Below, piece after piece: positions 1,933 to 30,877 of a DNA stretch of 32,518 nucleotides (position 1 is its first letter; every line of letters begins with the position of its first letter). This stretch comes from Ramicandelaber brevisporus (taxonomy: Eukaryota; Kickxellomycota; Ramicandelaberales; Ramicandelaberaceae). The stretch lies in the NCBI GenBank assembly GCA_025201865.1, contig MU602796.1:17799-50316 (forward strand), given 5' to 3'. The notes below the pieces were generated by a model. It ran no database searches, had not been told where the DNA came from, and saw only the letters and a program-made list of their open reading frames with translations. Position numbers and translations under genes: made by a program.

Positions 1933-2631
1933 GCTGCATGTTATACTTGAGATACCGCAGCTGTCTACAGTACACCATGGTTGTATGTATGATGTGGTAG
2001 GGGATGTACTTTGCAGTCGATGCCAGTAGATCGTTGCATGTAACATCAACTTCTCCTCGCTCAGAATGCATTGAATGCAGATAGTTTCGTTAGCTCTGCT
2101 ACTTCTGAAGTGACTGCGCAATTAGCACAGCGGACACACCCCGCCACTGAGATTGACAGCGACACGCAACCCACTCCGATTACACAATCGCTATCGACTC
2201 TGAGAGAGACTAGCATAGGTCGGTAAAAATAAAAGTGAAGTTCGTTCAATGCTGTATCGATTTCGCCATGGGCCACAGATGTCGTCTTCTGACGGAGAGA
2301 CAAGAGCTGACCTGCAATTTCTAATATCTGAAGATGGCGGGTGGGGCGGAAGAAGGGATAAAGGGGGAGGGTGTGCGGGATGGTGTTTGGCGAAGGTGTG
2401 TGTGTGTGTCTGTCATGTTAGTCGAATTGACCATCATTTGCTCACTCACTTCTATTTCTTCGTTCTATTATCATCCCTCCTCTATCTGTCAGGGTTGACT
2501 TCAGTCTATTATACCGAGCTAGTGCCAAGCAGCTGAGGAAAGAAAGAAAGAGAAGAAGAGGAGGAGGAGGCGTTTGTTTCTAATCTCTTCGTCATCTCTG
2601 CTGTACACTACTTTTATTCGTTTATTGCGTC
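1933..2631. other. Intergenic region upstream of ATG1
   Basis: I see no convincing gene in these 699 bases. It holds a short TG dinucleotide run (about 2395-2413) and a purine-only tract (2535-2570) ending 61 bases before the ATG1 start, probably in its promoter or 5' leader. An AG preceded by TTGAC near 2490-2505 resembles an intron acceptor but no matching coding exon was found. Confidence 0.5.
2535..2570 (+). repeat. Purine-only GA tract before ATG1
   Basis: An uninterrupted run of G and A sits upstream of the ATG1 start. It may be promoter or leader sequence; no specific factor can be assigned. Confidence 0.6.
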
Positions 2632-5600
2632 ATGACACGACAACAGCATCATCATCTGCAACATCGACAGTATCCAATTTACACAGCTGTAAAGCCACTC
2701 GAACCACAACAGCAACATCCACAGCCACAGCAGCAGCAGCAACAGCAGCAACAGCAGCAACAGCAGCAGCGTCGACCGTCCGCAGCCGCAGCCGTGTTTG
2801 CGGCCGCTCATGCCGCAGCGCCGCAAACCGGGGCAGTGTTCAGAGGCACTTTTGTGAGCAATGGAAGTGGAAACGGTGGTGCTGGCTCTAGTGCTGGTGC
2901 TGGTGCTGGCTCTGGCTCTGGATATCGAACTACCAACGGTAATGGGAATGTTGCAACTGTTCAGCAGCATCGACGCAATTCGCCAACTGAATTACTCCTT
3001 CAATCGACGCAACTGCAGCCTGCGGAAGGAAAACAACAGCAACAACCACAACCACAACCATTTCCACCCCTCGGTGTGTCAGCTTTCTCTCGCAACAACA
3101 CTTTCAACAATAATAACCCTCTCGCTGTGCCCAAAGTGTCGCAAGCGGTGGTAACAGCAGGTACATCTTCACAGTCGATCACTACGGACAAGCAGCAGCC
3201 AGCGAGCCGGATATCAAACGGAGTCACCGGTGCAGTTCGTCATCAGATGCAGCAACCACAGTCTGCAGTAAACCCTTCATCAGGGGCACAGCTTCAGCAA
3301 CAGCTTCAGCAACAGCAACAACAGCAGCAACTACAGCAGCAGCAGCCACGAGGCAGCAGCGGTATAGTGTTTACAGGAGGCACAACAGTGGGCGAGTATG
3401 TATTAGGAAGTGAAATTGGACATGGCTCATTTGCAACAGTGTCAAAGGGTATAGTCAAGCGAACAGGACAGTCTGTCGCAGTAAAGAGTGTCCACCGAGC
3501 CAAGTTAACATCGTCACTACTGCGCAATTTGGAGTCCGAGATTAGTATATTGAAGCGAATGCGTCATCCAAATATAGTGGCACTGTTGGATTGTCTAAAG
3601 TCAAGAAATAGGATTCATTTGGTAATGGAGTATTGTGAAGTGGGTGATATGGCATTTTACATCAAGGCGAGAAAAGAGTATCCTGCATTACGTGCTATTC
3701 AACCAACACTCAGCCAGCCCAAGATTATCATTGGTGGATTGAAGGATCCAATTTTGAGATTCCATCTGGGACAATTGGCATCTGCAATGTCGTATTTGTA
3801 CTCTCAAAAGATCATTCACAGAGATATTAAGCCTCAGAACATTCTATTGCAGGCTCCATCTGCAAACTATAAATTAGGAGAATCAGAACAGAATGGAGTG
3901 TATCCAAATGTTAAAATTGCAGACTTTGGATTTTCACGCACATTGCAGCATGCACAAATGGCAGAGACTCTCTGTGGATCACCATTATACATGAGTCCAG
4001 AAGTGCTGAGGTACGAGAAATACACAAACAGAGTGGATCTATGGAGTCTAGGAGTAGTGTTATATGAAATGGCAGTGGGCAAACCTCCTTTTAGGGCCAA
4101 TAACCATATTGAACTATTGCAGAAGATTGATAAAACCAACGATCACATTTTATTCCCCACTAAGGATGGCAATACTCAGTCTATCGATGACGATGATGTT
4201 GATGATAACAATGGTGGTTTCAACGGAAGTGGTATTGTGGCGAAAGATTTACGGGTCCTGATTGGTGGATTACTCAAAAAGACACCTTCCGATAGAATGT
4301 CATTTGAAGCATTCTTCAATGCACGTGTTGTAGTTGAATGTAGAATTGCATCAGAAGCCATTGAAGTGCCACCTCCCCCACTGGTCACTCCAATGTCATC
4401 TATGAAGCCAGCCCATCAACAACCACAACAGACGACATCTACATCTACAGCTACATCTACAGCTACAGCAACAACAGGTGCTTCCACAGCAATACCAACG
4501 GCAGCTGCAACCACTAACGCTAATAATACTACTAATACCGCCACTACTCCTTCTCATATTACGCCACCTCCTCTGCCCAATCGGCCATCAGAAACCGTGC
4601 TTGCAAAGGTGGTTGAACGAATGAAACTCCAGGACCCAGCAAACAAACAAACACATACTCAGCAGCAGCCACAGACGGACGCTGTGCCGCAGCAAACCAC
4701 AGAGTTGCCATCAGTATCTGTATTACCACCAACCATTCCAGTGGCAACAGGAGCACGCTGGCCAACAACAAAGGAGCCAATCATTGAGCGCGACTTTGTT
4801 GTAGTAAACAGAGATGCTGTAGTAATCAACAAGCAGGCTGACGAGCTTGGATCAACTCCACGTCCGCCTGCTGCTGATTTTGGACTGCGTCAGTTTTTAT
4901 TCGGTGGAGCTGGATCTCTGGCATCTGCATTGGGCCGCACTCCCGATAGTCCAGCCATCGATGATTTGCATTCGAACGCACCTGGACTCTTTGGTCAGAC
5001 TCAACAACCATCACAGCAGAGCCAGCAAGTCAACACGACAGCAGCAGATTTGACAGCCATTCACCAGAAATTGGCAATAGTGGAAGCGCAGGTTGTACAG
5101 CGCGTTGAAGACTTGGCAGGCAAAGCACATGCATTGATCAAATTTGCCAATCACAAAACAAACCAACTTGTAATGAATGAGACTATCCAGCAATTACCTG
5201 GCACCAGATTGAGTGCATCCCCTTCCTATCCAGGCAGCACTGGAGAGAGGCTGCAAATGCCTGCATCCTCACTGAGTGACAGTCCTTCTTCAGTATTCGA
5301 CCAGCCACCTGTAACTGTTGAATCAACATCAACCACGCGGGACATTACACGAGAAGTTGCACTCACATTAACACCAGATGATGGAATCAGAGTCTACTAT
5401 TGCGCACAGTCGCTGTTAACTGCAGCGATGGAGGCGGCTCATCAGCACTGGAGACTGGCTGGTGGAACTAACGGTGCGGTGACGTCTGTTTCATTTAATA
5501 ACACTGTTCAGTGGATACGGAACTTGTTCAATGATACTATAGACAAGGTAGAGTTCCTTCAAGGCTATGCTATGGCTCAGTCTGACTCTGATGAAGCAAA

Positions 5601-6159
5601 CGCTCGGCCAATTGGAGTTCACTCTGACTCGGACAGTGACAGAGAAGGTGATGCCGGCGATAATGATGGCGATGACAGTGATGAAAATGATGAAAAGAAC
5701 TCTCATGCAAAATCAGCTGCAATTGCTCAGATCATTTATGTGCGCTCACTTGGCATTGCTAAAGAGGCAGCCATAAAGGAGTTGGCGGGAGATGATCCAT
5801 TCAACTGCGAACGTGCCTACCAGATGGCTATTTCAATGCTATCTGCCTTGCTTGAGTTAACCTTCGTCGTCGCTGCGCCGCCTTCCGCCTCTGAGCACCC
5901 CTCGGATGATGATAGCAGCAATGACAATAGCGGTCGTTTGATGCCATCTCCACACATACAGCCTCGTCGTGCTTACCCTCCTTCCGCAGCAGCCAACCAG
6001 CAACGCCAGCAGCAGGAAGCCACGGAAACCTCGCAGCAGCTGCGCCGATATGTGGTGGAAGGTGAGAATCGAGAGACTATTAGCAAGTTTATTGCATCAT
6101 TAACTGCCAAGCTACAATCGCTACGCCGCAAGATTCTCGCCAGACCATCTTCTCCTTAG
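2632..6159 (+). CDS. ATG1: Autophagy-initiating Ser/Thr kinase Atg1 (ULK family)
   Basis: Atg1 starts autophagosome formation together with Atg13 and the Atg17 scaffold. The kinase domain spans about residues 254-568: glycine loop GHGSF, Lys in VAVK (K285), HRDIKPQN (D398), DFG (D431) and the activation segment AETLCGSPLYMSPE, whose T446 corresponds to the autophosphorylated Thr of yeast Atg1. An Atg8-interacting motif, FVVV at 722-725 after acidic ERD, aligns with the conserved fungal Atg1 AIM. The C-terminus carries helical tandem MIT segments (roughly 810-840, 905-985 and 1037-1085) that bind Atg13, interrupted by Ser-rich and acidic inserts. The protein is 1175 aa and has an unusual 250-residue Gln/Pro/Ala-rich extension before the kinase. 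An alternative start at 3247 (residue 206) would remove most of it. Confidence 0.93.
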   Translation: MTRQQHHHLQHRQYPIYTAVKPLEPQQQHPQPQQQQQQQQQQQQQQRRPSAAAAVFAAAHAAAPQTGAVFRGTFVSNGSGNGGAGSSAGAGAGSGSGYRTTNGNGNVATVQQHRRNSPTELLLQSTQLQPAEGKQQQQPQPQPFPPLGVSAFSRNNTFNNNNPLAVPKVSQAVVTAGTSSQSITTDKQQPASRISNGVTGAVRHQMQQPQSAVNPSSGAQLQQQLQQQQQQQQLQQQQPRGSSGIVFTGGTTVGEYVLGSEIGHGSFATVSKGIVKRTGQSVAVKSVHRAKLTSSLLRNLESEISILKRMRHPNIVALLDCLKSRNRIHLVMEYCEVGDMAFYIKARKEYPALRAIQPTLSQPKIIIGGLKDPILRFHLGQLASAMSYLYSQKIIHRDIKPQNILLQAPSANYKLGESEQNGVYPNVKIADFGFSRTLQHAQMAETLCGSPLYMSPEVLRYEKYTNRVDLWSLGVVLYEMAVGKPPFRANNHIELLQKIDKTNDHILFPTKDGNTQSIDDDDVDDNNGGFNGSGIVAKDLRVLIGGLLKKTPSDRMSFEAFFNARVVVECRIASEAIEVPPPPLVTPMSSMKPAHQQPQQTTSTSTATSTATATTGASTAIPTAAATTNANNTTNTATTPSHITPPPLPNRPSETVLAKVVERMKLQDPANKQTHTQQQPQTDAVPQQTTELPSVSVLPPTIPVATGARWPTTKEPIIERDFVVVNRDAVVINKQADELGSTPRPPAADFGLRQFLFGGAGSLASALGRTPDSPAIDDLHSNAPGLFGQTQQPSQQSQQVNTTAADLTAIHQKLAIVEAQVVQRVEDLAGKAHALIKFANHKTNQLVMNETIQQLPGTRLSASPSYPGSTGERLQMPASSLSDSPSSVFDQPPVTVESTSTTRDITREVALTLTPDDGIRVYYCAQSLLTAAMEAAHQHWRLAGGTNGAVTSVSFNNTVQWIRNLFNDTIDKVEFLQGYAMAQSDSDEANARPIGVHSDSDSDREGDAGDNDGDDSDENDEKNSHAKSAAIAQIIYVRSLGIAKEAAIKELAGDDPFNCERAYQMAISMLSALLELTFVVAAPPSASEHPSDDDSSNDNSGRLMPSPHIQPRRAYPPSAAANQQRQQQEATETSQQLRRYVVEGENRETISKFIASLTAKLQSLRRKILARPSSP
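2727..2770 (+). repeat. Mixed CAG/CAA tract encoding poly-Gln in Atg1
   Basis: A run of CAG and CAA codons encodes an uninterrupted Gln stretch in the N-terminal extension of Atg1. A second Gln-rich block lies at about 3290-3345. The CAG/CAA mixture is less prone to slippage than a pure repeat. Confidence 0.9.
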
Positions 6160-6408
6160 TATGATCACTCTTTTAGTTAATATCCTCTCCCTCCTCTTCC
6201 GTCCGCCCGCTTTTATGCGATGTTAGATCAAGCTATATCCATTTTACACATCTTTTTTCTTTTCTTTCTCTCTTCTTCAATCCGCATTGTATTCCTCCTC
6301 CCAAGCCAACTAGCCAACAGCGACAACAACTGTGACGGCAGCAGCTACAAAACAAGCAAATTGAAGAAACAAAAATTCAACACTGTTCAAACCAACTGGC
6401 AAACAGAG

Positions 6409-7326
6409 ATGACTACGACCGCAGCAAACACAGATGAGCTTGAGCAGCAGAAGCGTGAGTGGATGGATATTCAGCTTACATTGCGCTCCAAACTGAAGAA
6501 GCACGACGATGGCCTCACCTTTACGGCGACTTATGACCAGCTGCAGCAGACTCCAGCCATCGATGGCCTTACGCTTGTTGGAGGCGTTGACATTAGTTTC
6601 TTCATAGGTGAGTCAGACAACCGTGCTGTTGCTACACTTGTCGTCCTCTCGTATCCGGACCTCGAAGTTGTATACGAGGATCTTTCCGGTGATGATGCCG
6701 CCGATAATGGCAGCGGTGTTGTTCACTTGGAGCTGCCATACATTCCATCCTTCCTGGCGTTTAGAGAGGTGCCTCATCTCATCAAATTGGTTGATCGTCT
6801 TCGTCAAAAGAGACCGGATCTGATGCCACAGGTGATTCTCGTGGATGGCAACGGCATTTTGCACCCGCGCCAGTTTGGGCTCGCTTCGCATTTGGGAGTA
6901 GTGGCCAATGTGCCCACAATTGGCGTGAGCAAGAACTTCTTCCAGATGGAAGATATTGAGCCAGGCATGACAATTGCCAGCACCAAATCAACCTTTAGAG
7001 AAGCAGTAGCTGCCAAACGAGCCATATCCAAGAATGCCGATGTGATTGTGGATATCAAAGGCACACGGGTTCATGAAGATGAAGGTGAGACGGAGGTAAG
7101 AACGTATGGCGCGGCTGTGGCGTTTGGGAAAGCAGTGAGCAATCCGACATTTGTGACCATTGGACACAGAGTCAGCTTGGAAACTGCCATTGCTGTGGTG
7201 AAAGCAATGTCACTTCATCGCGTTCCGGAGCCAATCAGACAGGCGGATTTGAGATCACGGAGACGAGTTGCCGAGATTGAAAGTAAAGAAGCACCATCTG
7301 TCACAACTAGCTCAGATCAAATTTAA
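6409..7326 (+). CDS. ENDOV: Endonuclease V
   Basis: Endonuclease V cuts next to deoxyinosine in DNA; eukaryotic forms prefer inosine in RNA. All family motifs are present in order: GGVDIS (D61), YIPSFLAFRE (E120), VDGNGILHPRQFGLASH (D146, H152), PTIGVSKNFF and TIGHRVSLETA (H253). The carboxylates match the metal-binding residues of the E. coli enzyme. The 305-aa length suits a eukaryotic form. I chose the ATG at 6409, just before the conserved core. An in-frame ATG at 6220 would add 63 residues with a hydrophobic start that the family lacks and that looks like translated leader. It lies 249 bases after ATG1 on the same strand. Confidence 0.92.
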   Translation: MTTTAANTDELEQQKREWMDIQLTLRSKLKKHDDGLTFTATYDQLQQTPAIDGLTLVGGVDISFFIGESDNRAVATLVVLSYPDLEVVYEDLSGDDAADNGSGVVHLELPYIPSFLAFREVPHLIKLVDRLRQKRPDLMPQVILVDGNGILHPRQFGLASHLGVVANVPTIGVSKNFFQMEDIEPGMTIASTKSTFREAVAAKRAISKNADVIVDIKGTRVHEDEGETEVRTYGAAVAFGKAVSNPTFVTIGHRVSLETAIAVVKAMSLHRVPEPIRQADLRSRRRVAEIESKEAPSVTTSSDQI

Positions 7327-15201: not shown

Positions 15202-17682
15202 TTAATGCGGCTGAATATGGGGGTAGGGTGACTGCGGTTGCTGTTGCTGTTGCTGTTGTTGTTGTTGTTGTTGTTGTTGATGGTGAAGGACATGGGCAGG
15301 ATAAGCTACAGGAGTTCCACTAGTTACATTGGTCATAGTGTGCTGTTGTGACTGCTGTGGCTGTTGCTGGTGCTGGAACTGATATTGATAATGATTTTGA
15401 TGATGGATTGGAATCATTGGCTGCTGTTGCTGTTGCTGCTGACTGTGCGGTTGGGTGTGAGCCGGAATCTGCTGCTGATGCTGCATGAACACCTGCACTT
15501 TGCTAAACTGGTGATTGTTCGGATTAATCTGATGCTGAAGCTGCTCGTGCGACGCTTGCTGAGATGTTGGATTGGATGTAGCAGCTGCAGTAGTAGAGGG
15601 TGTGTTGTTAAAGGGACGCTGATGAGCCAAGCTGGCAATTTCAGCCACCTGAACTGCAAAATTGTCAGGATCCTGTTCATGGTCAATACCATCAGCCAGT
15701 CCCTCTGGGATCTCGATAGCAGCCGCAGCCGCAGCCGCAGCCATTTCAGCATCTGACACTCCGTCCAGAATCTCAATAGCGGCAGCAGCCAGCGAGGGGT
15801 CGTCTGCGATTTCATCAACAACTTGCATATCAGCCTGCAAGTCACCATTGGAATGAGCAGCAGCTTCCGCATCTACATCAGCATCAGCGTAAGCACCACT
15901 GTGATCGCCGCTGTGATCATCTTCATGTGAAGGGTTGTCAGTGTCCAACCGAATGCGCTTTTCATCTTGATACTGCTCCTCGGTGCCATCTTCAGCATAC
16001 TCTCCACCTTCTTCATCCAGCGGCTGCTGCGGCTGCTGTGTTACCTCTGCCTGGCGCTTTTGTGTCATGCGAGCAACTTCCTGTGCTCGCGACAGCTGAT
16101 TGTGCGACAGCTGTTGATGGCGATACTTGAACCGGAAATTCTGGAACCAGTTGCGCACCTGATGCGGGAATAAGCGAGTCTCCTGCACCAAGGCTTCAAG
16201 ACGCTCACCACGTGGCGTTTCGTGTGATTCTTCAAATGCCTTGATCAAAAGAGACAAGCTCTCGCCTGCAATCTTGGCACGTCCACCACGGACAGACTGC
16301 GGGCGACCACTTTCATCGCCTTCATTGTCATCCTGGCTACCATCTATCATGCTGGCTGTGTCGCCATTGCCACCCGGGCCAGCACTGGTGCTGACCGCAG
16401 CAGGCCGTGGTGAGCTAAGTGCAACCGAAGATGCATTCTGGGTGACACCGGCTTCAATTCCGGCTGCTGTGGACGGATCACGCAGAATGCTATTGATTCC
16501 ACCGCTACCACCACCACTGCCGCTGCCACCACTAACGCCACTACCACCTTGAGTACTGCGGCGCTTGCGGCTTGCACTGCCTCCAACGGCACTGGCGCCT
16601 CCAGAGCGAGAACGGTTAGTCTGCGAATTGGATGCACCGCCACTGCCAAGCATCGAGATATTGCCAAGTGCCCCAAACGATAGCTCGTTCTTAGCCGCAC
16701 CAGGGCCGCCAGCAGTGCGACCCGAGATGCCCAGTCCATTACCGCCACCAGCTCCCACGCTACTGCGCATAACACTGCTGGCCTCAGTCATAGTCTGCAC
16801 AAACAATTCACAGAGTCGGCGAGCACTCTGGATCGCAGTCATGTTCGAAGTCTGATCATCATCTCTGCCGCCGCCGCTGCTGCCGCCACTGCCGCCGGTG
16901 TTCTTATTGGTCAGCATGCGACGGTTGCCATCGACTTCATCTTCAGCCTCCCCATCGTCATTGTAGAGCTGAATGCCAATCTCTTCAGCATACAACAAGT
17001 AGCGGTCAGTGAGATCGAGCATAGCATCAAAGTCACTGGGGTTCATTGTGAAATGAGGATGGCGCAGCACCTTGGCGAATTGGACAAGTTTCTGGCGCAG
17101 TGACAGCAAGCGCTCACCTTCAACGACTTCCAAAGCTACATCATCTCCAGCAGCGCCAATTCCGTCATCCATCACCATACTGTGGCCTTCCTGTTCCATT
17201 GGCTGCAAATCATGCTCATTATGCTGTAAACGCTGTTGATGCTGCTGATACTGCTGTTGCTGGTACTGCTGATGTTGATGCTGCTGCTGATGCTGCTGAT
17301 GCAGGTGGTTGTGATGGTTAGACTGCTCGTGGCCGTGATGCTGATGATACTGGAACTGCTGTGCTTGTTCGTGATACTGATGGTGCCCATGCTGCTCGAG
17401 CTGCAAATTCTGTTGATGTTGTTCCGAAAACTCCGATTCGCCGCTCAGAGCAACTATCACAGAAGACGCTGCAATTATCTGCTGATCGTCTTGTTGCTGT
17501 TGCTGCTGCTGTTGGTGCTGCTGAAGGTAGGTTTGCTCAGGTGGCTGTTGTTGTTGCTGCTGCTGCGGCAGTTGCTGTGACGGGGACGGAGCGAACTGCT
17601 GTTGCTGCTGCTGCTGCTGCGGCGGCGGCGGCGATGGCGGCGGCTGCTGCTGTTGGCCAGTACTGTCAGCGCCTTGCTCCAT
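15202..17682 (-). CDS. Homeodomain transcription factor, Gln-rich (826 aa)
   Basis: A single homeodomain lies at about residues 465-524: ESLSLLIKAFEESHETP gives helix 1, RLEALVQET helix 2, and HQVRNWFQNFRFKYR helix 3. The invariant W48, F49, Q50, N51 and R53 equivalents are kept (W512, F513, Q514, N515, R517), so it should bind DNA, but positions 52 and 54 are both Phe, which is unusual. A basic RKRR patch upstream could serve nuclear import. Another predicted helical segment (about 190-245, LRQKLVQFAKVL and MLDLTDRYLLYAEEIG) is of unknown role. N- and C-termini are very Gln/His-rich, typical of activation domains. It is not a TALE or mating-type homeodomain on visible features. The target genes are unknown. 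Confidence 0.85.
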   Translation of the reverse strand: MEQGADSTGQQQQPPPSPPPPQQQQQQQQFAPSPSQQLPQQQQQQQPPEQTYLQQHQQQQQQQQDDQQIIAASSVIVALSGESEFSEQHQQNLQLEQHGHHQYHEQAQQFQYHQHHGHEQSNHHNHLHQQHQQQHQHQQYQQQQYQQHQQRLQHNEHDLQPMEQEGHSMVMDDGIGAAGDDVALEVVEGERLLSLRQKLVQFAKVLRHPHFTMNPSDFDAMLDLTDRYLLYAEEIGIQLYNDDGEAEDEVDGNRRMLTNKNTGGSGGSSGGGRDDDQTSNMTAIQSARRLCELFVQTMTEASSVMRSSVGAGGGNGLGISGRTAGGPGAAKNELSFGALGNISMLGSGGASNSQTNRSRSGGASAVGGSASRKRRSTQGGSGVSGGSGSGGGSGGINSILRDPSTAAGIEAGVTQNASSVALSSPRPAAVSTSAGPGGNGDTASMIDGSQDDNEGDESGRPQSVRGGRAKIAGESLSLLIKAFEESHETPRGERLEALVQETRLFPHQVRNWFQNFRFKYRHQQLSHNQLSRAQEVARMTQKRQAEVTQQPQQPLDEEGGEYAEDGTEEQYQDEKRIRLDTDNPSHEDDHSGDHSGAYADADVDAEAAAHSNGDLQADMQVVDEIADDPSLAAAAIEILDGVSDAEMAAAAAAAAIEIPEGLADGIDHEQDPDNFAVQVAEIASLAHQRPFNNTPSTTAAATSNPTSQQASHEQLQHQINPNNHQFSKVQVFMQHQQQIPAHTQPHSQQQQQQQPMIPIHHQNHYQYQFQHQQQPQQSQQHTMTNVTSGTPVAYPAHVLHHQQQQQQQQQQQQQQPQSPYPHIQPH
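15238..15279 (-). repeat. CAG/CAA tract encoding C-terminal poly-Gln of the homeodomain protein
   Basis: Alternating CTG and TTG on the given strand encode an uninterrupted Gln run near the C-terminus. Further tracts lie near 17490-17530 and 17570-17625 in the N-terminal coding part. Confidence 0.9.
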
Positions 17683-21371: not shown

Positions 21372-21595
21372 CTCGTTCCTTTGATTGTGTTTTTTTTTTT
21401 TAAATAAGAACGCTCTCCTTTAACATGACTTTTTTTTGTTCTAGAGAGGATTATCATGATTAATTAATAGCTGTGTGCACGCTCACCAGCGACTCCTTTC
21501 TGCCAACCTCTCCAATGACGAAGCACTATCCCTCAACACTGCTACTGTCACCATTAAACTTTTAATCAATCAAAGCCGCCGTTGTCTCTTTTGTC
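21372..21595. promoter_or_regulatory. Gap between the UBA and SH3 membrane protein genes
   Basis: It has T runs just after the UBA stop, consistent with a 3' end, and a TTAATTAA palindrome near 21459. No gene or firm promoter element is seen. Confidence 0.4.
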
Positions 21596-24500
21596 ATGTC
21601 AATGGAGTGGTTGACTTGCTGTCGAATACTCCACTCGGCGGTGGCTGTACTGGCCCTTTTGGCCATTCATTTTGCACTCGCAGCTAATCTGCAACCATTG
21701 TTAACTGATACATCAGCCTCCCCACCGGCAACGACAGCAGCAACAGCAGGAGAAGCAGGAGTTCTACCTGTTCGATGCGGTCTTGTTACTCATTCTGAAA
21801 TGTGCCCGGCATGGACATCTGCAGGTGACGACACCTCTCCGTCCAACATGCTTCGTGGCCAGTCATTTGTGGTATCCTCACGCGGAATCAATAGTCTCGC
21901 TAAATCGCCAGATTCAGCCATTTTTGTCACCGATGAGACCAATTCTACAACTACGGTCTTTGACTCAATAGTACAGGATCATCTCTTCATCAAAATGCGA
22001 CATGTTGTTGAGCTGCAGCGCATCTTTCAATGTGCTGTTGACAGCGACAGTTTACAGCCAAAATCCAGCCAGTCATTAGCGCAAAGCACTGCACGTCTGA
22101 TGGAGCAGTGGATGTATCGACTGCGGTATGCTCGTAGCATGGCATGTGCAGACGTGATTTTTGCGAGCCAGAACGTGGGTGACTGTGATTCATTCTTACG
22201 ATATCGGATTCGTACTAATCAACAGCAACAACAGCCAGAGAATACATTCCAAGTGTTTGATATGAACATGTTGACATCCGCAGCGGCATTTTCCACAGCA
22301 AACCGTGGTGATCGATTGAGACAGGGAGGCAGCATGGACTTGGCACTATTGGATGATCTTGACGAATCTTTTATAACCAAATCTACAACGTCAGCATCAT
22401 CATCTTCATCTTCGTCTTCATCATCCTCTACAGAATCACAATCACCAAATTCTAAGTCATCTTCTGATGCACCAGCTGATCCAAGAATGAGTGGATTTTT
22501 AATCAAACGCGGGCACCATCTTCACCATCGTCAGCTTCCGTCGCAGTTGCCAGTATTGACATGGCCAGATGCCCCACTGACATCAGATCTTCAACGTGCA
22601 TTGTTGCCATTATGCCGCACTACCTGTATCACTCATGCCCGCGACGTGGCTGCACTTGTCAACAACTCTACAACGTGTCCGTTCCCATCACCCTCATCAG
22701 TATCAGCCAGTTCTCGATCCACGCCTGATGATCGAGAGATTCAAATGATTACTGAGTATAGACATCGTAAACTACAGGAATTCTTCAGCAACTGTGATCG
22801 ACATCCATTCAATGGCTCAAATAATATTGATTCAGCCAATGGCAACAGTAGAACGAGCAGCTCGAGTTGCATTGATGGAGATTGGAATGAACCACGCTCA
22901 TGTGGATATTTGAATCAAGAAGCACAGTGTCAGATGTGTTCATCTTCAGAGTGTTTCATTCAACGGATGCATAGAGCAGTCACGAGTGCATCGCAACTTG
23001 CACCATTAGTACCTGATGACTTCAGTCATGATACTGCAGCTACAGCGAGTGGGGGAAGCGGAGTGCGAGCTGGGCAGCGGGTCGTGGCTGATAGTGTATT
23101 GACTCCAATCGCAGTCTTGGCAGAGGAAGGCAGTCACCCCAACAACAAAAACAACAACAAAAACAACAACAGCAATAACAGCAGCTCACATCATGGCACT
23201 GGTGGCAATGTAGGTGGAAGTAATGGTATGAATAGTCAATCACATGGTGTTTGGGCAACTTTGGCGCCAATTGGTCCAGCCATTCCACAGCCAACTCCTA
23301 CATTTACAACCCGCTCATCAATACCTTTGCCATCAGCAATGCCTTCGGCGACAAATCCAATTGAAGGTGACAGCACCAAGTCGACAGCATCATCACCTAC
23401 CAACAGCTACAACAATAACAGCAACATGATTGTAGTTGGCATCGCATCTGCGTTTGGCGCACTATTGGCATTCCTCTTAGTACTACTCATTGCGATGCGA
23501 TGTGGCTGGGTTAGTGATCGATTGTTCAGAGGCAATTCTGATGGTAAACGTACATTGCTAACAAAGGAATCACGCTCTGATACAGCCACAGCATCAGCCA
23601 CAGTATCAGCATCTCGTAATCGATCAACAAAGTCATCATGGATTAAATGGATGAAGACGCATTTATCAAAGGTTGATTATACAGCGGTGTTCACCCGTCT
23701 TCGTCAATTATGGAATGCGCGCAAGGCATCTACAGCTACAGCAGCATCTGCAACAGCAACAACAGCTACTACAGCTACAGCAGCAGCACAGCGTAACTCC
23801 AATGCTCACAAGCAAGCAACATCCTCCACTGATCAGCCGGACGCACCATCTTCTCCAGCATCCAAGAAGAGTACTCGCAGCTCAATCAGCTACGCCAGCG
23901 GTAGTTACAATGTCTTTTACACGAATCAAAATGGCACCAGTAAGCGCACATATCAACGCTATCCACAGCAGTTTCTCGACCGCCTCGCTTCGCCCACTTC
24001 GGCAACATCAACTGCTCCTCGCCAAGTTCTGCAGACATACTTTCCACGCCGACCAGATGAAATACTATTGACGATTAACGACATTGTGGATGTGAAATCG
24101 ACATTTGCAGACGGATGGGCAGTTGGATTCAATAGGACAACATCGTCGGAAGGTGCGTTCCCAGTTGTGTGCATCTTGACTACTGAGGAATTGGCAGAGC
24201 TGGAAGAGATGATGTTGGAAGAGCGTCGGAAAGCCCTTCGCCAACAACAGCAGCAACAACAGCAGTCAAATGGTAAGCATGGAGTATCAGCAGCAACAGT
24301 AACAACAATGGCAACTGGAGACGATGTTGATGACGGTAGATTGGAGATGACATCGTTTATGGTGAAGCCCCTGCCAACCGAGACCGACTATGAGTCGCTG
24401 CAGTTGTATTCAGTTGAAAGTGCATCAGACACTGAAGCAACAGCAATAACAACAACAACAACAACAACGGCTACCACAGCTACAGCGAGTCCTTCAGCCA

Positions 24501-25237
24501 CTAGAGAGCGTGGTGAAATAGGTAATGTATCGACTCAACAAGGCATACTCACCAGCATTTTCTCGGCTGTGAAGAATACATTTGCAAGTCTTGCGCTTCA
24601 CAGCCACAGCAACAATTCAGCTCACTCGCAGAATTTGGACATTGGTCGCATCATCCAGCCACGCACAGATTCTCTCGAGAAGCAGTCTGATCAACCATCC
24701 AGCTCACCAGTCATCATTTCACCAAGCTCATCTCGCACGTCAGCATCTTCACCGCCACTGCAGCCTCCTCCGCCTGTAGTGCCTCGTCCACGTCCACTCT
24801 CGAGCATCTTCCGGCCGACCCAGCAGTTTCAATCACATCACAGCAACGAGCCTAACATTGTGCATGCGTTTGAGCACACTCGTTTGTCACCCAGATTGCC
24901 ACCGCCTCGACTCCCATCGTCACCGCTTCGGCTGCCACAGATTCCTGGAATGCCAAAGCCTCACCCAGCTGATGTCATTGACCCGATTCCTAGTCAGCAG
25001 CAATCACAGCAGCCCAAACCGTCGTTATTGTCAACGTTGCACAAGCCGTGGAATTACCAGTATTTGCTGGAATCAAGAGATCGCATCAACACCCCGGAAT
25101 CACTGCGACAAAGACTTGAAGCACTCTCAGTAATCAAAAATCAACAGCAACAAACTTCCCAACCACAATCACAATCACAACTACAACTACAAACACAAAT
25201 ACAGCCACAGCATAACCTTTACCCTGATTACATATAA
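21596..25237 (+). CDS. Type I membrane protein with Cys-rich ectodomain and cytoplasmic SH3 domain
   Basis: The 1213-aa protein has a signal peptide (about residues 10-30, VAVLALLAIHFALAA), an ectodomain of about 580 residues with roughly 16 cysteines, including CGYLNQEAQCQMCSSSEC, and one membrane span (about 611-635, MIVVGIASAFGALLAFLLVL). The cytoplasmic side has a single SH3 domain at about 811-870: QTYFPRRPDEILLTINDIVDV, DGWAVGFNRTTSSEGAFPVVCI. It ends in Pro-rich sequence with PPPPVVPRPRP-like ligands. This layout is known in fungal membrane SH3 proteins such as Fus1-like and zygomycete surface proteins, which recruit Pro-rich partners at the membrane. The ectodomain ligand is unknown. 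Ser, Gln and Thr homopolymer stretches occur throughout. Confidence 0.82.
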   Translation: MSMEWLTCCRILHSAVAVLALLAIHFALAANLQPLLTDTSASPPATTAATAGEAGVLPVRCGLVTHSEMCPAWTSAGDDTSPSNMLRGQSFVVSSRGINSLAKSPDSAIFVTDETNSTTTVFDSIVQDHLFIKMRHVVELQRIFQCAVDSDSLQPKSSQSLAQSTARLMEQWMYRLRYARSMACADVIFASQNVGDCDSFLRYRIRTNQQQQQPENTFQVFDMNMLTSAAAFSTANRGDRLRQGGSMDLALLDDLDESFITKSTTSASSSSSSSSSSSTESQSPNSKSSSDAPADPRMSGFLIKRGHHLHHRQLPSQLPVLTWPDAPLTSDLQRALLPLCRTTCITHARDVAALVNNSTTCPFPSPSSVSASSRSTPDDREIQMITEYRHRKLQEFFSNCDRHPFNGSNNIDSANGNSRTSSSSCIDGDWNEPRSCGYLNQEAQCQMCSSSECFIQRMHRAVTSASQLAPLVPDDFSHDTAATASGGSGVRAGQRVVADSVLTPIAVLAEEGSHPNNKNNNKNNNSNNSSSHHGTGGNVGGSNGMNSQSHGVWATLAPIGPAIPQPTPTFTTRSSIPLPSAMPSATNPIEGDSTKSTASSPTNSYNNNSNMIVVGIASAFGALLAFLLVLLIAMRCGWVSDRLFRGNSDGKRTLLTKESRSDTATASATVSASRNRSTKSSWIKWMKTHLSKVDYTAVFTRLRQLWNARKASTATAASATATTATTATAAAQRNSNAHKQATSSTDQPDAPSSPASKKSTRSSISYASGSYNVFYTNQNGTSKRTYQRYPQQFLDRLASPTSATSTAPRQVLQTYFPRRPDEILLTINDIVDVKSTFADGWAVGFNRTTSSEGAFPVVCILTTEELAELEEMMLEERRKALRQQQQQQQQSNGKHGVSAATVTTMATGDDVDDGRLEMTSFMVKPLPTETDYESLQLYSVESASDTEATAITTTTTTTATTATASPSATRERGEIGNVSTQQGILTSIFSAVKNTFASLALHSHSNNSAHSQNLDIGRIIQPRTDSLEKQSDQPSSSPVIISPSSSRTSASSPPLQPPPPVVPRPRPLSSIFRPTQQFQSHHSNEPNIVHAFEHTRLSPRLPPPRLPSSPLRLPQIPGMPKPHPADVIDPIPSQQQSQQPKPSLLSTLHKPWNYQYLLESRDRINTPESLRQRLEALSVIKNQQQQTSQPQSQSQLQLQTQIQPQHNLYPDYI

Positions 25238-25390: not shown

Positions 25391-25960
25391 TTAAGCCCGT
25401 TGTGACTGCTGAGTGTGCATTGCCGGTGATGCTGCGGCCTGTGTATATGCTGCTGGATCGTACGTGTAATAGTAACTGTTTGTTCTGCCAGCATCAGCTG
25501 GATTTGTGGTAGCAGCCGCAAGCTGTGGAGTCAGTGCTGGCGAGTCTGTTGATGTAGCCGCAGCTGTCGTGTAGATTGCGTATGGAGCCGCAGCTGTGGT
25601 CACGTATCCATACTGATATCCTGTAGATGCGTACGGAGAGCTATACGGATTCTGCACCACTTGGTACGGCTGTGCTGCTGTAGACACTGCAATCGCCACC
25701 ATGTTCGGGTCGTGAACTTTTGTGCCATCTGCATAATACATGCCGTTGTTATCGGGCATGACGAGTGTGGTGTGGTTTTCGCCAATGATGCCCATGTTGA
25801 CTGCATCGGTTACAACTTTGACGGCCATTTCGCCGTTCTCGACTTGCTTTTGCATCCGCAGCATTCGCTTGCGAGTGTAGCGTCTGTACACAAAGAAGCC
25901 GATGACCGCAAGCACGCCTATAGCTGTGCCGACCGAGCAATAGATTGGTACTCCACCCAT
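25391..25960 (-). CDS. Single-pass membrane protein, ectodomain-less paralogue of the 26706-28187 gene
   Basis: This 189-aa protein starts almost at its membrane span (residues 8-24, VGTAIGVLAVIGFFVY), followed by RRYTRKR, which predicts a cytoplasmic C-terminus and a signal-anchor topology. Residues 24-57 match the juxtamembrane region of the next gene upstream at 15 of 34 positions in a hand alignment, including ENGEMAVKVVTDAVNMG against ENSDQAVQALTDAVNAG. The tail is Ala/Tyr/Pro/Thr-rich, and both proteins contain YSSPY. No ectodomain or signal peptide is seen. The frame is open 7 codons upstream of the ATG to a TTAG that could be an intron acceptor, but no ectodomain exon was found in the 745-base gap. 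Function unknown. Confidence 0.72.
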   Translation of the reverse strand: MGGVPIYCSVGTAIGVLAVIGFFVYRRYTRKRMLRMQKQVENGEMAVKVVTDAVNMGIIGENHTTLVMPDNNGMYYADGTKVHDPNMVAIAVSTAAQPYQVVQNPYSSPYASTGYQYGYVTTAAAPYAIYTTAAATSTDSPALTPQLAAATTNPADAGRTNSYYYTYDPAAYTQAAASPAMHTQQSQRA

Positions 25961-26705
25961 GATGCTTTCTCGGTGTCGATACTAACTGAAGCTGTTGACG
26001 TTGTAAAAAATAAAAATGGAAATAGCGTGGAGGTGAGAACAGAGCAGAGCAGAGCAGAGCGGTATTCGAAATCAGCGACGACCAGATGGGCCGAATTGGA
26101 TGGAAGCCACAAAGACGGTCGTTGGTGCTGCTGTTACTGGTGTTTGCTGTTGTTTGTTGTACCGAAAGCCTGCCTATCAACGTGCAGTGATGATATAAAG
26201 TACAAGTAAAAGAAGAAGAAGAAGCGAAAGCAAGGGTATCAAAGTAAAAGTGGGTGGAGGTGGAAGGAGTGCACACCAAGACTGGTAAGTATACGAACAG
26301 AGTCCGGCGTATCGTTTGTTGACTTGCTTTGCTTCGCCTCACAGTTCAGTGACAAACCGCACAACCACCGACACACACAAAAATGCACACACGTACGCAC
26401 GCACGCTCACACAAAGCGAAAAGAGAACAGAAGACTGGGAGGATAAAGGCGGACCAGAGAACAGGGAATCGCGAAGGATTTGGGGGGAAGGGAAGGGAAG
26501 CTGGGTGACCCGAGTCAAGTATATTGGACTTCCGTTTGCCATTGACGCCCACGCGATTCGTTGCCATAATGTCTAAAAGTAGTAAAAATAGAAGCGATAA
26601 TCTGCTCGCGAGCATGTACGACGTGTTCATCATGATGACCTTTAAAAATTGTAAATAAGCGATGGCACAGTAACGACGGGAAGAGAGGAAGGTGAGAAGA
26701 TTAAA
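25961..26705. other. Intergenic region between two membrane-protein paralogues
   Basis: It contains four agagc units (26041-26060), a CA-rich stretch (about 26370-26413) and a G/A-rich block near 26480-26505. A minus-strand ORF at 26346-26633 starts with a hydrophobic leader but ends in translated CA repeat and is not convincing. No gene is called. Confidence 0.5.
26041..26060 (+). repeat. Four-unit agagc pentamer repeat
   Basis: Four exact agagc units lie upstream of the short membrane-protein gene. Confidence 0.9.
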
Positions 26706-28187
26706 TTAAGGGCGAGGTGCAGACGACTGTGGAGTGGCACCAGCTGCTGGTGGAGCTGCTGCAGAAGATGAAATCACTGGAGCCGTGGCAGATTCGCTGG
26801 CAAACACTTGGTAGCCATAGGGAGATGAATAAGCACCAGTTGCCGGGTCTGGCGCGTGGACATAGTACAAAAACTCGCCCGTAGATGGTGTGATGGCGGC
26901 AGTTGTGCCCAGAGCAGCCGCAGCAGCCGCAGCAGATGTGCCGGCAGCGGAAACGTAGATTGGCTGGCCATGTTCATCAATCGTCTGGTAGAGCAGTGCA
27001 GCCTGCTCACCTTCGCCAGATACAACAGGTGCACCGGTAGCTACAACGACGGTCGTAGGCTGCGAGTCAAGCAAGCCCTCATATGGGTTGGTGTTGAACG
27101 CACCGGCATTAACAGCATCAGTCAATGCCTGCACGGCTTGGTCACTGTTCTCGATGCGCTTCTCCATCGTCTTCATCTTCCGCTTTGCCCAGAAGCGATA
27201 CGCAATCAATGCAATGATCATGATGGCACCCACGCAGATACCAATGATGCCGGCGACTGGGAACGAGTGGCTGGTGCTACTACTGGTGCTTACACCGCCA
27301 GAACCACTGCTACCTGAATCTTTATGAAACAGGTAGCTTTCGGAGAGATTTGGCGCGCCATTGATGATGTTCTGTTTAAAGTACGACATGCGGACATAGT
27401 AGTCAACCGTGTCTGGATCGCCACAGGCTGCGGGGGTGATGCTCTTGGACTTTGACAAGCTGCCACTCGAGTGATAGATGCCCAACAGCGTCTTCTTGCC
27501 GTCTTTCTCCGTGCGCATCGCCATATCAGCCGCACCATAGTCGCACACTTTAGATGTTGTGCAAAAGTACTGCTGATCTCCCTGGAATTTGTAGTCGAGC
27601 TTGTTGTTTGCGCTCTGGCACGTTTCCTTGCTGAGGACCTTCGCTGTAGTCTCAGTCAGCTTTGGATCGAGCTCATAGCTGGACAACTTGGTTGTCTTGT
27701 AGATGGTCAGAATCTCGTCGTCGGCAGCAGGACTGTACGTGAGCTTGATTGGTTCAAAGCTGCTAATGCTCAGGTTCAGTGCCTTGCTAGTCTTGTACAA
27801 TGTCACAGTGTCGCCCGTGTCTTTACCATCAACATGTGTCACATTGACAAAGTCAGACGCACTTTGGTTAGCGTTGCTGGCGGCTGGAGTGTTGTTATCG
27901 CTGCTTTTGGCCGAAGCTGAGTCTGTTTGCGGCTGCTCCATCGGCTCAGAGATGACAGAGCAGCGTCTGATGGACATCAAGTAGTCTGGCGAAATGGCTG
28001 CAAACGTGCACCAACGATAAACGGCACCGCTGCCACCAGCGACTCGATTGTAGATTTGATGCTGGTAAAACGAGCCAATGGACATTGCCTTCATGTCGCC
28101 ACCAGTGCCTGTTTCGTCCATGTCTGTGGCAGTGCTAGGTCTGACCATCAGCAGACTGCATAATGCAAATAGAGCAAGGCAGCGCAT
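26706..28187 (-). CDS. Type I membrane protein with inactive trypsin-like (S1A) ectodomain
   Basis: The 493-aa protein has a signal peptide (1-20), an ectodomain with the chymotrypsin-fold pattern, a membrane span (about 310-330, VAGIIGICVGAIMIIALIAY) and an Ala/Pro-rich cytoplasmic tail. S1A landmarks: RVAGG (48-52) for the IVGG terminus, ISPDYLMSIRRC (65-76) for ISPxxVLTAAHC, DDEILTIYKTTKL (156-168) for the DIALLRL strand, CDYGAADMAM (215-224) for CxGDSGGPL, LLGIYHSSG for LVGIVSWG, and DYYVRMSYFKQNI for VYTRVSxYxxWI. The six mature cysteines pair as 60-76, 190-209 and 215-255, the three core trypsin disulfides. The catalytic His is Arg (R75) and Ser is Ala (A219), so it should be proteolytically dead and may act as a receptor or binding domain. 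Confidence 0.78.
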   Translation of the reverse strand: MRCLALFALCSLLMVRPSTATDMDETGTGGDMKAMSIGSFYQHQIYNRVAGGSGAVYRWCTFAAISPDYLMSIRRCSVISEPMEQPQTDSASAKSSDNNTPAASNANQSASDFVNVTHVDGKDTGDTVTLYKTSKALNLSISSFEPIKLTYSPAADDEILTIYKTTKLSSYELDPKLTETTAKVLSKETCQSANNKLDYKFQGDQQYFCTTSKVCDYGAADMAMRTEKDGKKTLLGIYHSSGSLSKSKSITPAACGDPDTVDYYVRMSYFKQNIINGAPNLSESYLFHKDSGSSGSGGVSTSSSTSHSFPVAGIIGICVGAIMIIALIAYRFWAKRKMKTMEKRIENSDQAVQALTDAVNAGAFNTNPYEGLLDSQPTTVVVATGAPVVSGEGEQAALLYQTIDEHGQPIYVSAAGTSAAAAAAALGTTAAITPSTGEFLYYVHAPDPATGAYSSPYGYQVFASESATAPVISSSAAAPPAAGATPQSSAPRP

Positions 28188-29038
28188 AACGAAAGAGAGT
28201 GTGTGGTATGTACTGCAGGTGATAGAGGGAAAGAGGAAGAGAGGAAGAGAGGAAGGGAGGGAAAGAGAGGCGGAAGTAGCGTCGACAGCCTGGACCGGAA
28301 GTGAGCTTTGTGAGTGTCGTTTGATAGGGCTTGAAGGTCAAAAGAGCGACAGAAAGTAACTCGCGTGTGTGTACGTCAACTCCAATAAATCCAGGTGGTT
28401 ACACGTCTGACGACTAAAGGGCAACACGCGCGAAAGGTTGATAACAAACTCAAAGAAGAAGAGGAAGAAAAAAAAACAAGTTGAAGAAGTCTAGGTTGCA
28501 AGTGAACAGCGAAAAGAAGCAGCGGAAGAAGAGGAAGAGGCAGTGTGAGCGAAGCAATGAGAGTGTGCCTGACTGTGAACGGCAACAGTCGATGCAGTCA
28601 ATAACACTGTGAAGGATAAGGGTATAGTTTATATTTGGTACTGTGCTGCGAGCACCCGCGAAGGCTTTGGGAACCCATCGCATACATCGCATACACCGAA
28701 CCACACACACCACACTCGTGACTTGCCTTCTTTCCAAAGAGGTAAACAAAGAGCACTGGCTGCGTTTTAACAACAACAAAAGAACACACAGCACGAAGTA
28801 TGTGCAGAAGCTTTCTTGATGCCACCGCTACTGTTCTTTGTAAGCGACAAAAAAGTGACACATACATACACCACGATGGCTACTGTTTCCGTTGTTGTTG
28901 TTATGCTTTCCTCCTGTTTTCTTCTTTGACCTTTTTTCGATTCAACCTTTACAATACAAACCTAATACAACCCAATATTACGTGTTCGTGAAACTAGACG
29001 AACCGAACCGAAACGAAACAACACTCAACTAGCCAGCT
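28188..29038. promoter_or_regulatory. Divergent intergenic region (pseudoprotease gene and UBX gene)
   Basis: These 851 bases lie between two divergent starts and probably contain both promoters. A purine-only tract lies at about 28225-28270, close to the pseudoprotease start; a second purine-rich block is near 28455-28550. I found no convincing gene, TATA box or RNA gene. Confidence 0.5.
28225..28270 (+). repeat. GA-rich purine tract
   Basis: A near-uninterrupted purine run made of gagga and aaga units lies in the divergent promoter region. Confidence 0.75.
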
Positions 29039-29822
29039 ATGGATCGTGATGTTCAAGTGGCACAGTTCTGTGCAATGACGGATACAGCACCTGACGTTGC
29101 GGAACAGTACTTGGCCATGGCAAACGATGACTTTGAAGCTGCAATCGGCCTTTACTTCGAGATTGGTCCAACTAGCGGTGGAGCTCAACAGCAGGCTTCA
29201 AACACTGCTGCAACTGCCAACAGACAATCTGCCGACCCATTCGGCATCGGTGGTGGTGGTGGTGCAGGTGGTGGTGCAGACTATGACGATATCCGTGCAC
29301 CAATTCAGCCACAGCGCACCACGCTAGCTTTCGACGATAGTGGAGACTACGGTGGAGACTATGGTGGATATGATTTCGGAAGAGGAGGTGGCGGAGGAAG
29401 AGGAAGAGGAAGAGGAAGTCGTGGTGGCTTTGGTGGCTTTGGTGCAGGCGATTTTGGATTTGACGATGAAGGCAATGATCCCGAATTGGAAATGGCACTT
29501 AATATGAGCAGAGGAGATGCTGGTGGAGGTGGAGGTGGAGATGTAGGTAGCGGACGTGAACATGGAGCAGATTCAACGAGATCGGCATTGAGAGGAATGT
29601 ATGATGATTTTGGAGAGACACATGACGGATCAAGAAGAATGGATCCTGGCTCGGTTGTTGAAATTGGCAGTGGCGATGATGATAATCATAATGAATATGC
29701 AGATGATCCAGTCGATGTTCTCGCGGCTTTGGAAACTGCCGGTGGCATCTCTGGTGCATCCAATTTGCCAATGAGTCGCACAGGCACATCATCATCTGCC
29801 ACAGCACCAGCCTTTGCAGCTT

Positions 29823-29854
<32 letters not shown>

Positions 29855-30877
29855 CCAAAGAGCAAGTTTGATGAGCTATTTGAACCGCCAGCTGATCTCC
29901 TGCACAATGCACCACTGGATACTCTGCTTGGCTGGGCAAAGGGTCAGCAAAAGTACGCCATTGTAAATCTCCAAGATCCAACCATATTCCAATGCCAAGT
30001 TCTGAATCGTGACTTGTGGAAAGACAAGAGAGTTCGGGAACTCATTGAAAATAGCTTCTTATTGACTCAGTATCAGATTGGTTCAGCTGATTATTCAAAC
30101 TATGTATCGTTGTATGGTGCAGTTGATGTATTGCCTCATATTGCCATTCTTCATCATCAGACTCGTGCTCGAGTGGCGATTGTTCCTCAGAGAGCTCACC
30201 AGCCCGACCAGTTTATTGACTTTTTGTATGATTTCTTGGGTGGCGCGTCAACTGCATATGGTGCCGCTACGCAACCACCCCAACCTCAGAGACAAGCTGC
30301 TGGAGAGAGTGCAAGGACGGAGAATGTACGCTCCGATGATTTGGAGCAGCGCATGCTTGAAGAGGCCATTGCCGCTTCTCTGCGCGACGCTGAAGAGAAC
30401 CAACTCAAGGCGGAACCCATTGTAGTGGATTCGGACGTAGATGATGCTGCCAACAAAGCCCAATCAGCCATTGCAGCTTCTACCGCCCCTGCTGCTGCTG
30501 CGCCATCATCGCACTGGTTTGACTCCATTCCCGCTACATTGTTGCCATCCGATACAAAGCCTGGTCCTGATGCCACTCGTATTCAAGTCCAGTTTGGCGA
30601 TGGAGCCCGAAGCACTCTCGTAATCCGTAAAGATGCCCATGTGCGTGACATCCTCTCGCATGTTCGTTCAATGGTGATTGAGAGAGCTGCAAACTCTGCT
30701 GAGATGGAGAAGCAGCTGTCTACCACCGACTGCATTGAGCTTCACTTCCAGGCTGCTCGTGGAGCAAAGACTACCACTCGCTTGAGCAAAATGCTGGATT
30801 CCACAGTTACTGAAGCTGGATTGACAATGGCTTCTCTGCGTGTTGAGGTTCTTGGCCGTGATGAAGAGTATGATTAA
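29039..30877 (+). CDS. UBX5: UBA-UAS-UIM-UBX protein, Cdc48/p97 cofactor (Ubx5/UBXN7 type)
   Basis: Domain order matches Ubx5/UBXN7, which link Cdc48/p97 to ubiquitylated clients and cullin ligases. Residues 4-45 are UBA-like (FCAMTDTAPDVAEQYLAMA, then DFEAAIGLYFE); about 285-400 form the thioredoxin-like UAS domain (LLGWAKGQQKYAIVNLQD, LPHIAILHHQTRAR); about 435-452 a ubiquitin-interacting motif (LEEAIAASLRDAEENQ); about 512-606 the UBX domain (IQVQFGDGARSTLVI...VTEAGLTMASLRVEVL). Two oddities: an Arg/Gly-rich segment (about 115-145) sits between UBA and UAS, and the FPR loop used to bind p97 is replaced by FQAAR at 570-574. A poly-Ala run from GCA repeats precedes the UAS domain. At 612 aa it is longer than yeast Ubx5 because of disordered inserts. 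Confidence 0.85.
29823..29853 (+). repeat. GCA repeat encoding poly-Ala
   Basis: About ten CAG-type triplets are read here in the GCA frame, giving Ala instead of the Gln encoded by the same repeat in neighbouring genes. Confidence 0.9.

Follow-up and report, generated by a model that had tools for sequence, protein, structure and literature searches.

The analysis of the window, i.e., the whole stretch of 32,518 nucleotides on contig C128 of the Ramicandelaber brevisporus assembly G000 (17.9 Mb, 510 contigs), showed that one of its genes encodes a protein, P0001, with a trypsin-related ectodomain that has lost its catalytic residues, followed by a predicted membrane anchor and a predicted cytoplasmic tail. 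The first-pass annotation had described a trypsin-related, membrane-anchored pseudoprotease, and this observation was confirmed as real at the sequence level by profile and shuffle tests, by the loss of His and Ser, by six conserved cysteines and by the predicted transmembrane helix. R. brevisporus is placed in Kickxellomycotina, and its genome carries 18 distinct loci with this combination of anchor and tail, none of which has an intact catalytic triad. As explained below, we lean towards the view that P0001 uses its dead trypsin head as the outer part of a receptor or sensor at the cell surface, with ligand binding and signalling as its presumed activities.

The features of the gene and of its downstream neighbour are presented in Table 1. 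The protein collection contains a sequence identical to P0001 (P0003). Hydropathy and sequence reading gave the layout of a single-pass type I receptor, namely a signal peptide, an ectodomain, one transmembrane (TM) segment and a tail, so that the topology of P0001 is predicted to be type I. The TM segment has a mean hydropathy of 2.85 over 19 residues, and five of the next 12 residues are Lys or Arg. A Ser/Gly-rich stalk lies between the trypsin-like ectodomain and the predicted TM helix, and five N-glycosylation sequons are present at residues 98, 107, 115, 138 and 280.

Table 1. Features of the pseudoprotease gene and its neighbour. Positions are those of the window; residues of P0001 are numbered from its Met (28187-28185), and the stop codon is at 26708-26706.
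Feature	Position	Strand	Basis
Membrane-anchored trypsin-related pseudoprotease gene, encoding P0001	26706..28187	-	single open frame, 493 codons plus stop (frame reading)
Predicted signal peptide, residues 1-21	28125..28187	-	hydrophobic N-terminus, judged by eye
Trypsin-homology ectodomain, residues 48-277, starting with RVAGG	27357..28046	-	hhalign and shuffle control
Arg75 in the His57 position	27963..27965	-	alignments
Ala219 in the Ser195 position, Gly218 in the Asp194 position	27531..27533 (Ala219 codon)	-	alignments
Predicted transmembrane helix, residues ~309-330, followed by basic RFWAKRK	27198..27263	-	hydropathy
Predicted cytoplasmic tail, ~163 residues, Ala/Pro/Thr/Tyr-rich, with QPIYV motif	26709..27197	-	sequence reading
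P0002, TM segment and tail without ectodomain, downstream neighbour	25391..25963	-	sequence comparison

The relationship of the ectodomain to trypsins was established by comparison of profiles. The P0001 ectodomain aligned with a profile of the active-looking trypsins of the same genome with a hhalign probability of 97.4 and an E value of 1.4e-11 over 227 columns, and the profile of the three-member clade that includes P0001 aligned with it at 98.8% (E 7.6e-17). In HMMER, P0001 scored 44.8 bits against the profile of the active-looking paralogues, while 500 shuffled sequences reached at most 5.0 bits. Moreover, locus L002 bridges P0001 to the rest of the family, with 25% identity over 401 columns that include the TM segment and tail (E 3e-24). 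A TM-bearing relative with clearer trypsin features, P0004, matched 196 distinct PDB sequences at E 0.001, and the best 60 of the 196 were all members of the S1 family.

No match of P0001 to Pfam Trypsin was listed at E 1, probably because the stretch between RVAGG and Cys60 is only seven residues long, there is no GWG motif and a long insert is present; the same model matched 6 of the 8 family members scanned. The PDB sequence search with P0001 returned no protease and a single match, to the tail (E 0.0029), and the search with the three-sequence clade profile found only one trypsin, at E 0.11. The AlphaFold2 models, built from three-row alignments, were both of low confidence, with a pLDDT of 34.4 for the full protein (alignment A3) and 37.6 for the ectodomain (A6), so the fold of P0001 has to be read from its sequence. 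The best 50 of 786 Foldseek matches of the ectodomain model (E 10) were all entries with an S1-fold protein; the best row had an E value of 6.6e-3, and we count this as weak support because no row reached E 0.001, the TM-scores did not exceed 0.37 and amino acids enter into the program's comparison as well. The two-barrel fold is therefore predicted from homology. According to the alignment, P0001 is shortened ahead of Cys60, its first strand region is incomplete and the GWG motif is absent, and for this reason its barrel may be altered.

The landmarks described in the first-pass annotation were found in the positions given there: RVAGG at residues 48-52, SIRRC at 72-76 with Arg75 directly before Cys76, and Ala219 four residues after Cys215. 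Its assignment of the catalytic His to Arg75 and of the catalytic Ser to Ala219 agrees with the alignments, although in the Ser195 column Ala219 is placed by two of them and Tyr217 by another; Ser is placed there by none. The Asp102 position is ambiguous, being occupied by Thr127 in two alignments, with Asp126 adjacent. The residues standing for His57-Asp102-Ser195 are thus Arg75, Thr127 (or Asp126) and Ala219, and the positions of Asp189 and Asp194 are taken by Lys and Gly, respectively. Likewise, the six ectodomain cysteines reported earlier (60, 76, 190, 209, 215 and 255) fall into columns C42, C58, C168, C182, C191 and C220, and fit the three core disulfides C42-C58, C168-C182 and C191-C220, the pairing being predicted. 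P0001 combines what defines an S1 pseudoprotease, i.e., S1 homology, absence of the catalytic residues and retention of the scaffold cysteines, and judging by these residues it is probably proteolytically inactive.

The search of G000 with Pfam Trypsin gave 49 matches, split and duplicate ones included, and protein searches brought in further, more distant trypsin relatives. Frames were read, C-termini were classified by a hydropathy rule and the triad columns were taken from one alignment. The classes, named TM+tail, GPI-like (the hydrophobic segment ends at the C-terminus) and soluble, follow our own hydropathy rules, which were set after the hydropathy table had been viewed. After near-copies had been collapsed and incomplete loci dropped, 48 distinct trypsin-fold loci remained, of which 18 were TM+tail, 20 GPI-like and 10 soluble.

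An intact His/Asp/Ser triad was found in 0 of 18 TM+tail loci and in 24 of 30 tail-less loci (Fisher's exact test, p 3.7e-8; the loci are related, and the p value is not one of independent events). The full triad occurs in all 10 soluble and in 14 of 20 GPI-like loci. Of the six dead GPI-like loci, three still have His but carry Gly in place of Ser, one of these with Asn at 102 as well, and the other three show broader changes. His57 is retained in 0/18 TM+tail loci versus 27/30 tail-less loci; Ser195 is lost in 17 of the 18, and the remaining one has Ser in the column without His. Asp102 is kept in five and Asp194 in nine of the 18, whereas Asp189 is kept in 2/18 TM+tail versus 9/24 intact loci. 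In place of His57 the TM+tail loci carry S, Q, N, E, R, F, Y or A (eight residues), and in place of Ser195 they carry A, V, I, D, Q, T, K, L, M, N or Y (11 residues in 17 loci), with the reservation that for the most divergent members different alignments can put different residues in these columns. All six core cysteines are present in 14 of the 18 loci despite these varied replacements, which means that the scaffold was retained and the chemistry was not. The other TM+tail members have between zero and eight N-glycosylation sequons. The first-pass annotation had suggested looking at whether His and Ser are consistently lost in relatives and whether active paralogues exist elsewhere in the genome; the counts answer both in the affirmative, with 24 active-looking loci carrying H, D and S.

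Several sequences were left out of the 18 and 30: C500 and C354, which are near-copies of C504 and C266; P0005, which is absent from this assembly; C169, with its N-terminal part missing and D and S kept; C130, with a masked stretch and Ser at 57; C165 (L082), cut by a contig end, with His kept and Gly at 195; C20, HtrA-like by eye; second rows of one locus; and the matches confined to the TM region on C5 (Ser/Thr-rich, not trypsin), C1 and C291:15336. The broken C18 copy, in pieces L054 and L049 with Gln at 57 and Asp at 195, was also excluded. It is a TM pseudoprotease copy (L054:900-2200) whose frame is interrupted by a tandem duplication of ~120 bp, either real or an assembly error. Loci L028 and L030 (C7), L042 (C69) and L082 (C165) keep His57, have Ser195 changed to Gly (CxGDGGxPL) and end in GPI-like C-termini. 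Loci L066 (C149), L073, L075 and L076 are very divergent TM members in which the trypsin landmarks are barely visible, and their divergence suggests that more trypsin-derived membrane proteins lie below the Pfam thresholds.

The clearer TM relative, P0004, is identical to locus L035 (contig C403). P0005 is 60% identical over the ectodomain query and 53-55% more widely; since even its best match in G000 reaches just 55% identity, its most likely source is a different R. brevisporus assembly. P0005 is dead too (Ala at 57, Thr at 195) and likewise carries a TM segment and a tail. A search of 5.8 billion proteins with P0001 and with profile A1 returned only P0001 itself, and the same search with L035 returned two R. 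brevisporus proteins; the word-based candidate step of this search is insensitive, so it is silent on absence from other fungi.

The phylogenetic analysis was performed on 49 rows (the 48 loci and P0005) with the catalytic columns removed. The tree splits 35 rows (24 intact, six dead GPI-like and five TM+tail) from 14 rows that are all TM+tail and dead, with support of 96/88, and P0001 clusters with L002, L066 and L074 (99/99). The tree has many long end branches, at which joins may be false according to the program's warning. The TM+tail label requires at least three changes on the best tree; the supported branches force only one change, and one to three independent pairs could be counted. 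With so few label changes, the 18:0 split goes back in large part to a single association passed on by descent and not to 18 events, and the association between TM+tail and catalytic death most likely arose once in the main clade, with a few uncertain cases in addition. The dead GPI-like members, which have no TM segment (6/20), indicate that catalysis can be lost in the absence of a tail.

Selection was assessed for five gene pairs, three TM+tail and two tail-less, none of which includes P0001. For the pair C153/C238, dN/dS was 0.33 (0.34 for the ectodomain and 0.32 for the TM+tail part). For C504/C500 it was 0.17, with zero non-synonymous differences in 226 TM+tail codons versus a synonymous proportion of 0.057. 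The pair C266/C354 is near-identical and too similar for dN/dS, and the two tail-less pairs are saturated at synonymous sites.

The predicted tails are 57-326 residues long in 16 of the 18 loci (some are cut by a masked stretch or the locus end) and 13 and 19 residues long in the other two. The claim of a conserved cytoplasmic module made in the first-pass annotation stood in part: a TM/juxtamembrane segment is common to P0001, P0002 and L002, but the tails are divergent across the family and share one short motif in 8 of 18, composed post hoc. The motif, [Q/Y/D]P[V/I/L/Q/Y]...Y[V/I] (the QP[V/I]..Y[V/I] type), had a shuffle mean of 0.37 tails and a maximum of 4 in 2000 shuffles; it was written after looking at the tails, and for that reason we regard it as a lead only. 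This set of 18 tails omits C238 (near C153) and takes in P0005, and the related pair L035 and P0005 is among the eight motif-bearing tails. In an unbiased pattern scan of the 18 tails, only basic stop-transfer patterns exceeded the shuffle maximum; the two halves of the motif, with z values of 5.3 and 5.1, were slightly below the 95% shuffle maximum of 5.4. We also asked whether the Tyr-rich tails might act through phosphotyrosine and discarded the idea, because fungi, to our knowledge, have no canonical tyrosine kinases or SH2 readers.

P0002 and P0001 share 34% identity across 58 residues of the TM/juxtamembrane segment (E 2e-13), and in a direct comparison P0002 aligned with L002 at E 7e-6. 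The genome search with P0002 at E 0.01 recovered only P0002 itself and P0001. Its gene stands in tandem with the pseudoprotease gene and may encode a co-receptor or be a duplicate minus its head. Convergent with the P0002 gene is a 1223-aa frame at 21566-25237 (+), a second surface-sensor-like gene near the pseudoprotease. Its predicted ectodomain contains Cys and is accompanied by a TM-like segment and by an SH3-like one, whose match to SH3_9 (E 5e-4) misses the Pfam cut-off. The window also contains, according to Pfam, an Atg1-like kinase (2584-6159, +), an endonuclease V (6181-7326, +), a homeodomain protein (15202-17682, -) and a UBA/thioredoxin-like protein (29033-30877, +).

The loss of catalysis is tied to the anchor and tail, and both scaffold and tail are retained, which looks like a receptor or sensor on an enzyme fold; the complete absence of an intact triad among the 18 TM+tail loci of one genome likewise favours this reading. 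The trypsin-like head would bind an extracellular ligand, and the predicted tail would pass a signal inward. The ligand may belong to the class bound by active trypsins, i.e., a substrate peptide, a protease inhibitor or one of the trypsins of the fungus itself, secreted or GPI-like. Given that Asp189 is kept in just two of the 18 loci, canonical substrate-like binding is doubtful. Active paralogues could cleave P0001 at its retained Arg-Val junction (residues 48-49), and the head would then act as a two-state switch by analogy with HGF. An Arg precedes the IVGG-like start in seven of the eight TM+tail loci that have such a start versus 9/24 intact loci (by reading and post hoc), which would make a cleavage switch possible. 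Asp194 is the usual partner of the new N-terminus formed by cleavage, and its absence from P0001 speaks against the switch. A more specific version of the receptor reading, in which at least 18 protease-sensing receptors would either be cut at an Arg|Val-type junction by the fungus's own or a neighbour's trypsins or serve as docking sites for inhibitors, with the tail relaying the state, is suggested by the same analogy and seems to us rather improbable. If it were true, the family would be a fungal counterpart of the protease-activated receptors.

The principal competitor of the receptor reading, to which we give perhaps half as much credence, is that the TM pseudoproteases regulate active secreted or GPI-like trypsins in the wall as dimer partners, chaperones or inhibitor decoys, with the tail used for trafficking only. 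The 24 active-looking paralogues would offer such partners, and the TM member L002 adjoins the active-looking soluble L022 in divergent orientation (C10, ~54.9-57.9 kb), possibly sharing a promoter region; just one such adjacent pair of active and TM-dead genes was noticed, however. Precedents point in the same direction, since S1 pseudoproteases are commonly cofactors or decoys according to excerpts of PMC13194640, and iRhoms regulate active proteases according to the excerpted literature. Insect serine protease homologues likewise act on active relatives. On the other side, the predicted tails are long, and the 226 unchanged TM+tail codons of C504/C500 are more than trafficking seems to need. 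The same constrained tail, together with the shared (post hoc) tail motif, is left unexplained if P0001 is an adhesin or wall-linked structural protein whose dead head sticks to a surface polymer or a partner cell while the tail merely anchors it. We therefore hold the adhesin explanation to be unlikely, although the Ser/Gly-rich stalks, the sequons and the large size of the family agree with it.

Two more sceptical explanations find still less room. That the family consists of decaying, functionless trypsin duplicates would fit the high divergence and the broken C18 copy, but 18 distinct open frames with TM segment and tail, 14 of them with six cysteines, and dN/dS values of 0.17-0.33 in the two informative TM+tail pairs (neither containing P0001) make it very improbable. 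Least credible of all, and in our view close to negligible, is that P0001 is not related to trypsin and carries the landmarks by chance. The Pfam miss and the nearly empty PDB searches would be expected in that case; the profile and shuffle tests, the identity to L002, the Pfam Trypsin matches of most members scanned and the uniformly S1-fold content of the best 50 Foldseek matches of the weak model, none at E 0.001, argue against it.

If P0001 is a receptor or sensor, the known surface sensors of early-diverging fungi would gain a new head domain, and the lineage, in which 18 genes join a dead trypsin head to an anchor and a tail and about two dozen relatives look active, would represent a natural experiment in turning an enzyme fold into a receptor. 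P0004 and P0005 are both annotated as 'trypsin-like serine protease', and such annotations, as well as the peptidase counts used for fungal lifestyle, can include non-enzymes. Peptidase abundance is related to fungal ecology in excerpts of PMC8778642 and PMC6784888, and the word Ramicandelaber is absent from the main texts of both.

Comparison with known systems places the layout of P0001 closest to fungal wall sensors and its head closest to animal S1 pseudoproteases. Wsc and Mid2 sensors have a signal peptide, an extracellular head, a Ser-rich stalk, a single TM segment and a cytoplasmic tail. P0001 is laid out alike, but its head is a trypsin homologue and not a WSC or mucin-like domain; Pfam gave no match to a WSC/Mid2-type sensor domain in P0001, and Mid2 matched one of the eight members scanned (E 5.1e-5), which supports the likeness to wall sensors. 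Insect serine protease homologues are secreted proteins, often with clip domains, and commonly show the change of Ser195 to Gly. They share with the P0001 family an S1 domain that has lost catalytic residues, and the GPI-like L028, L030 and L042 resemble them in the Gly at 195; unlike many of them, P0001 has no clip domain listed by Pfam. The SMIPP-S proteins of the scabies mite are a secreted multigene expansion. They are dead S1 proteins that keep the fold, according to excerpts of PMC13194640, as the P0001 family is predicted to be, and two SMIPP structures were among the best 50 of 786 Foldseek matches of the weak model. What sets the P0001 family apart is a predicted TM helix followed by a tail; its loci have lost His57 in 18/18 and Ser195 in 17/18 cases.

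The iRhom, Derlin and Dsc2 proteins are intramembrane and of the rhomboid type. They are described in the excerpted literature as pseudoproteases acting as membrane regulators, with Dsc2 in yeast; they are membrane pseudoproteases as here, but their fold is unrelated to the S1 ectodomain. The M14 metallocarboxypeptidase homologue Ecm14 was, in the same kind of excerpts, the only fungal pseudopeptidase outside the rhomboid group among the matches listed. A full-text literature search, which covers few subscription journals, gave neither a fungal S1 pseudoprotease nor a membrane-anchored S1 pseudoprotease family in fungi among the matches listed.

The S1 pseudoproteases known so far are mostly secreted proteins of animals. 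HGF entries were among the top rows of the best 50 of 786 Foldseek matches of the weak model. In excerpts of PMC13194640, the dead S1 domain of HGF is a receptor-binding surface switched by cleavage, and in the HGF beta chain and macrophage-stimulating protein, which bind MET and RON, the dead S1 domain likewise provides the surface for binding; P0001 shares with them the Arg|Val activation-type junction. HGF is a soluble animal ligand, whereas P0001 is fungal, has its own predicted membrane anchor and tail, and is without Asp194. As S1 pseudoproteases are already established in those excerpts, the R. brevisporus family is not a new category; its novelty, as far as the matches listed show, would lie in a fungal version of them with a predicted membrane anchor and tail.
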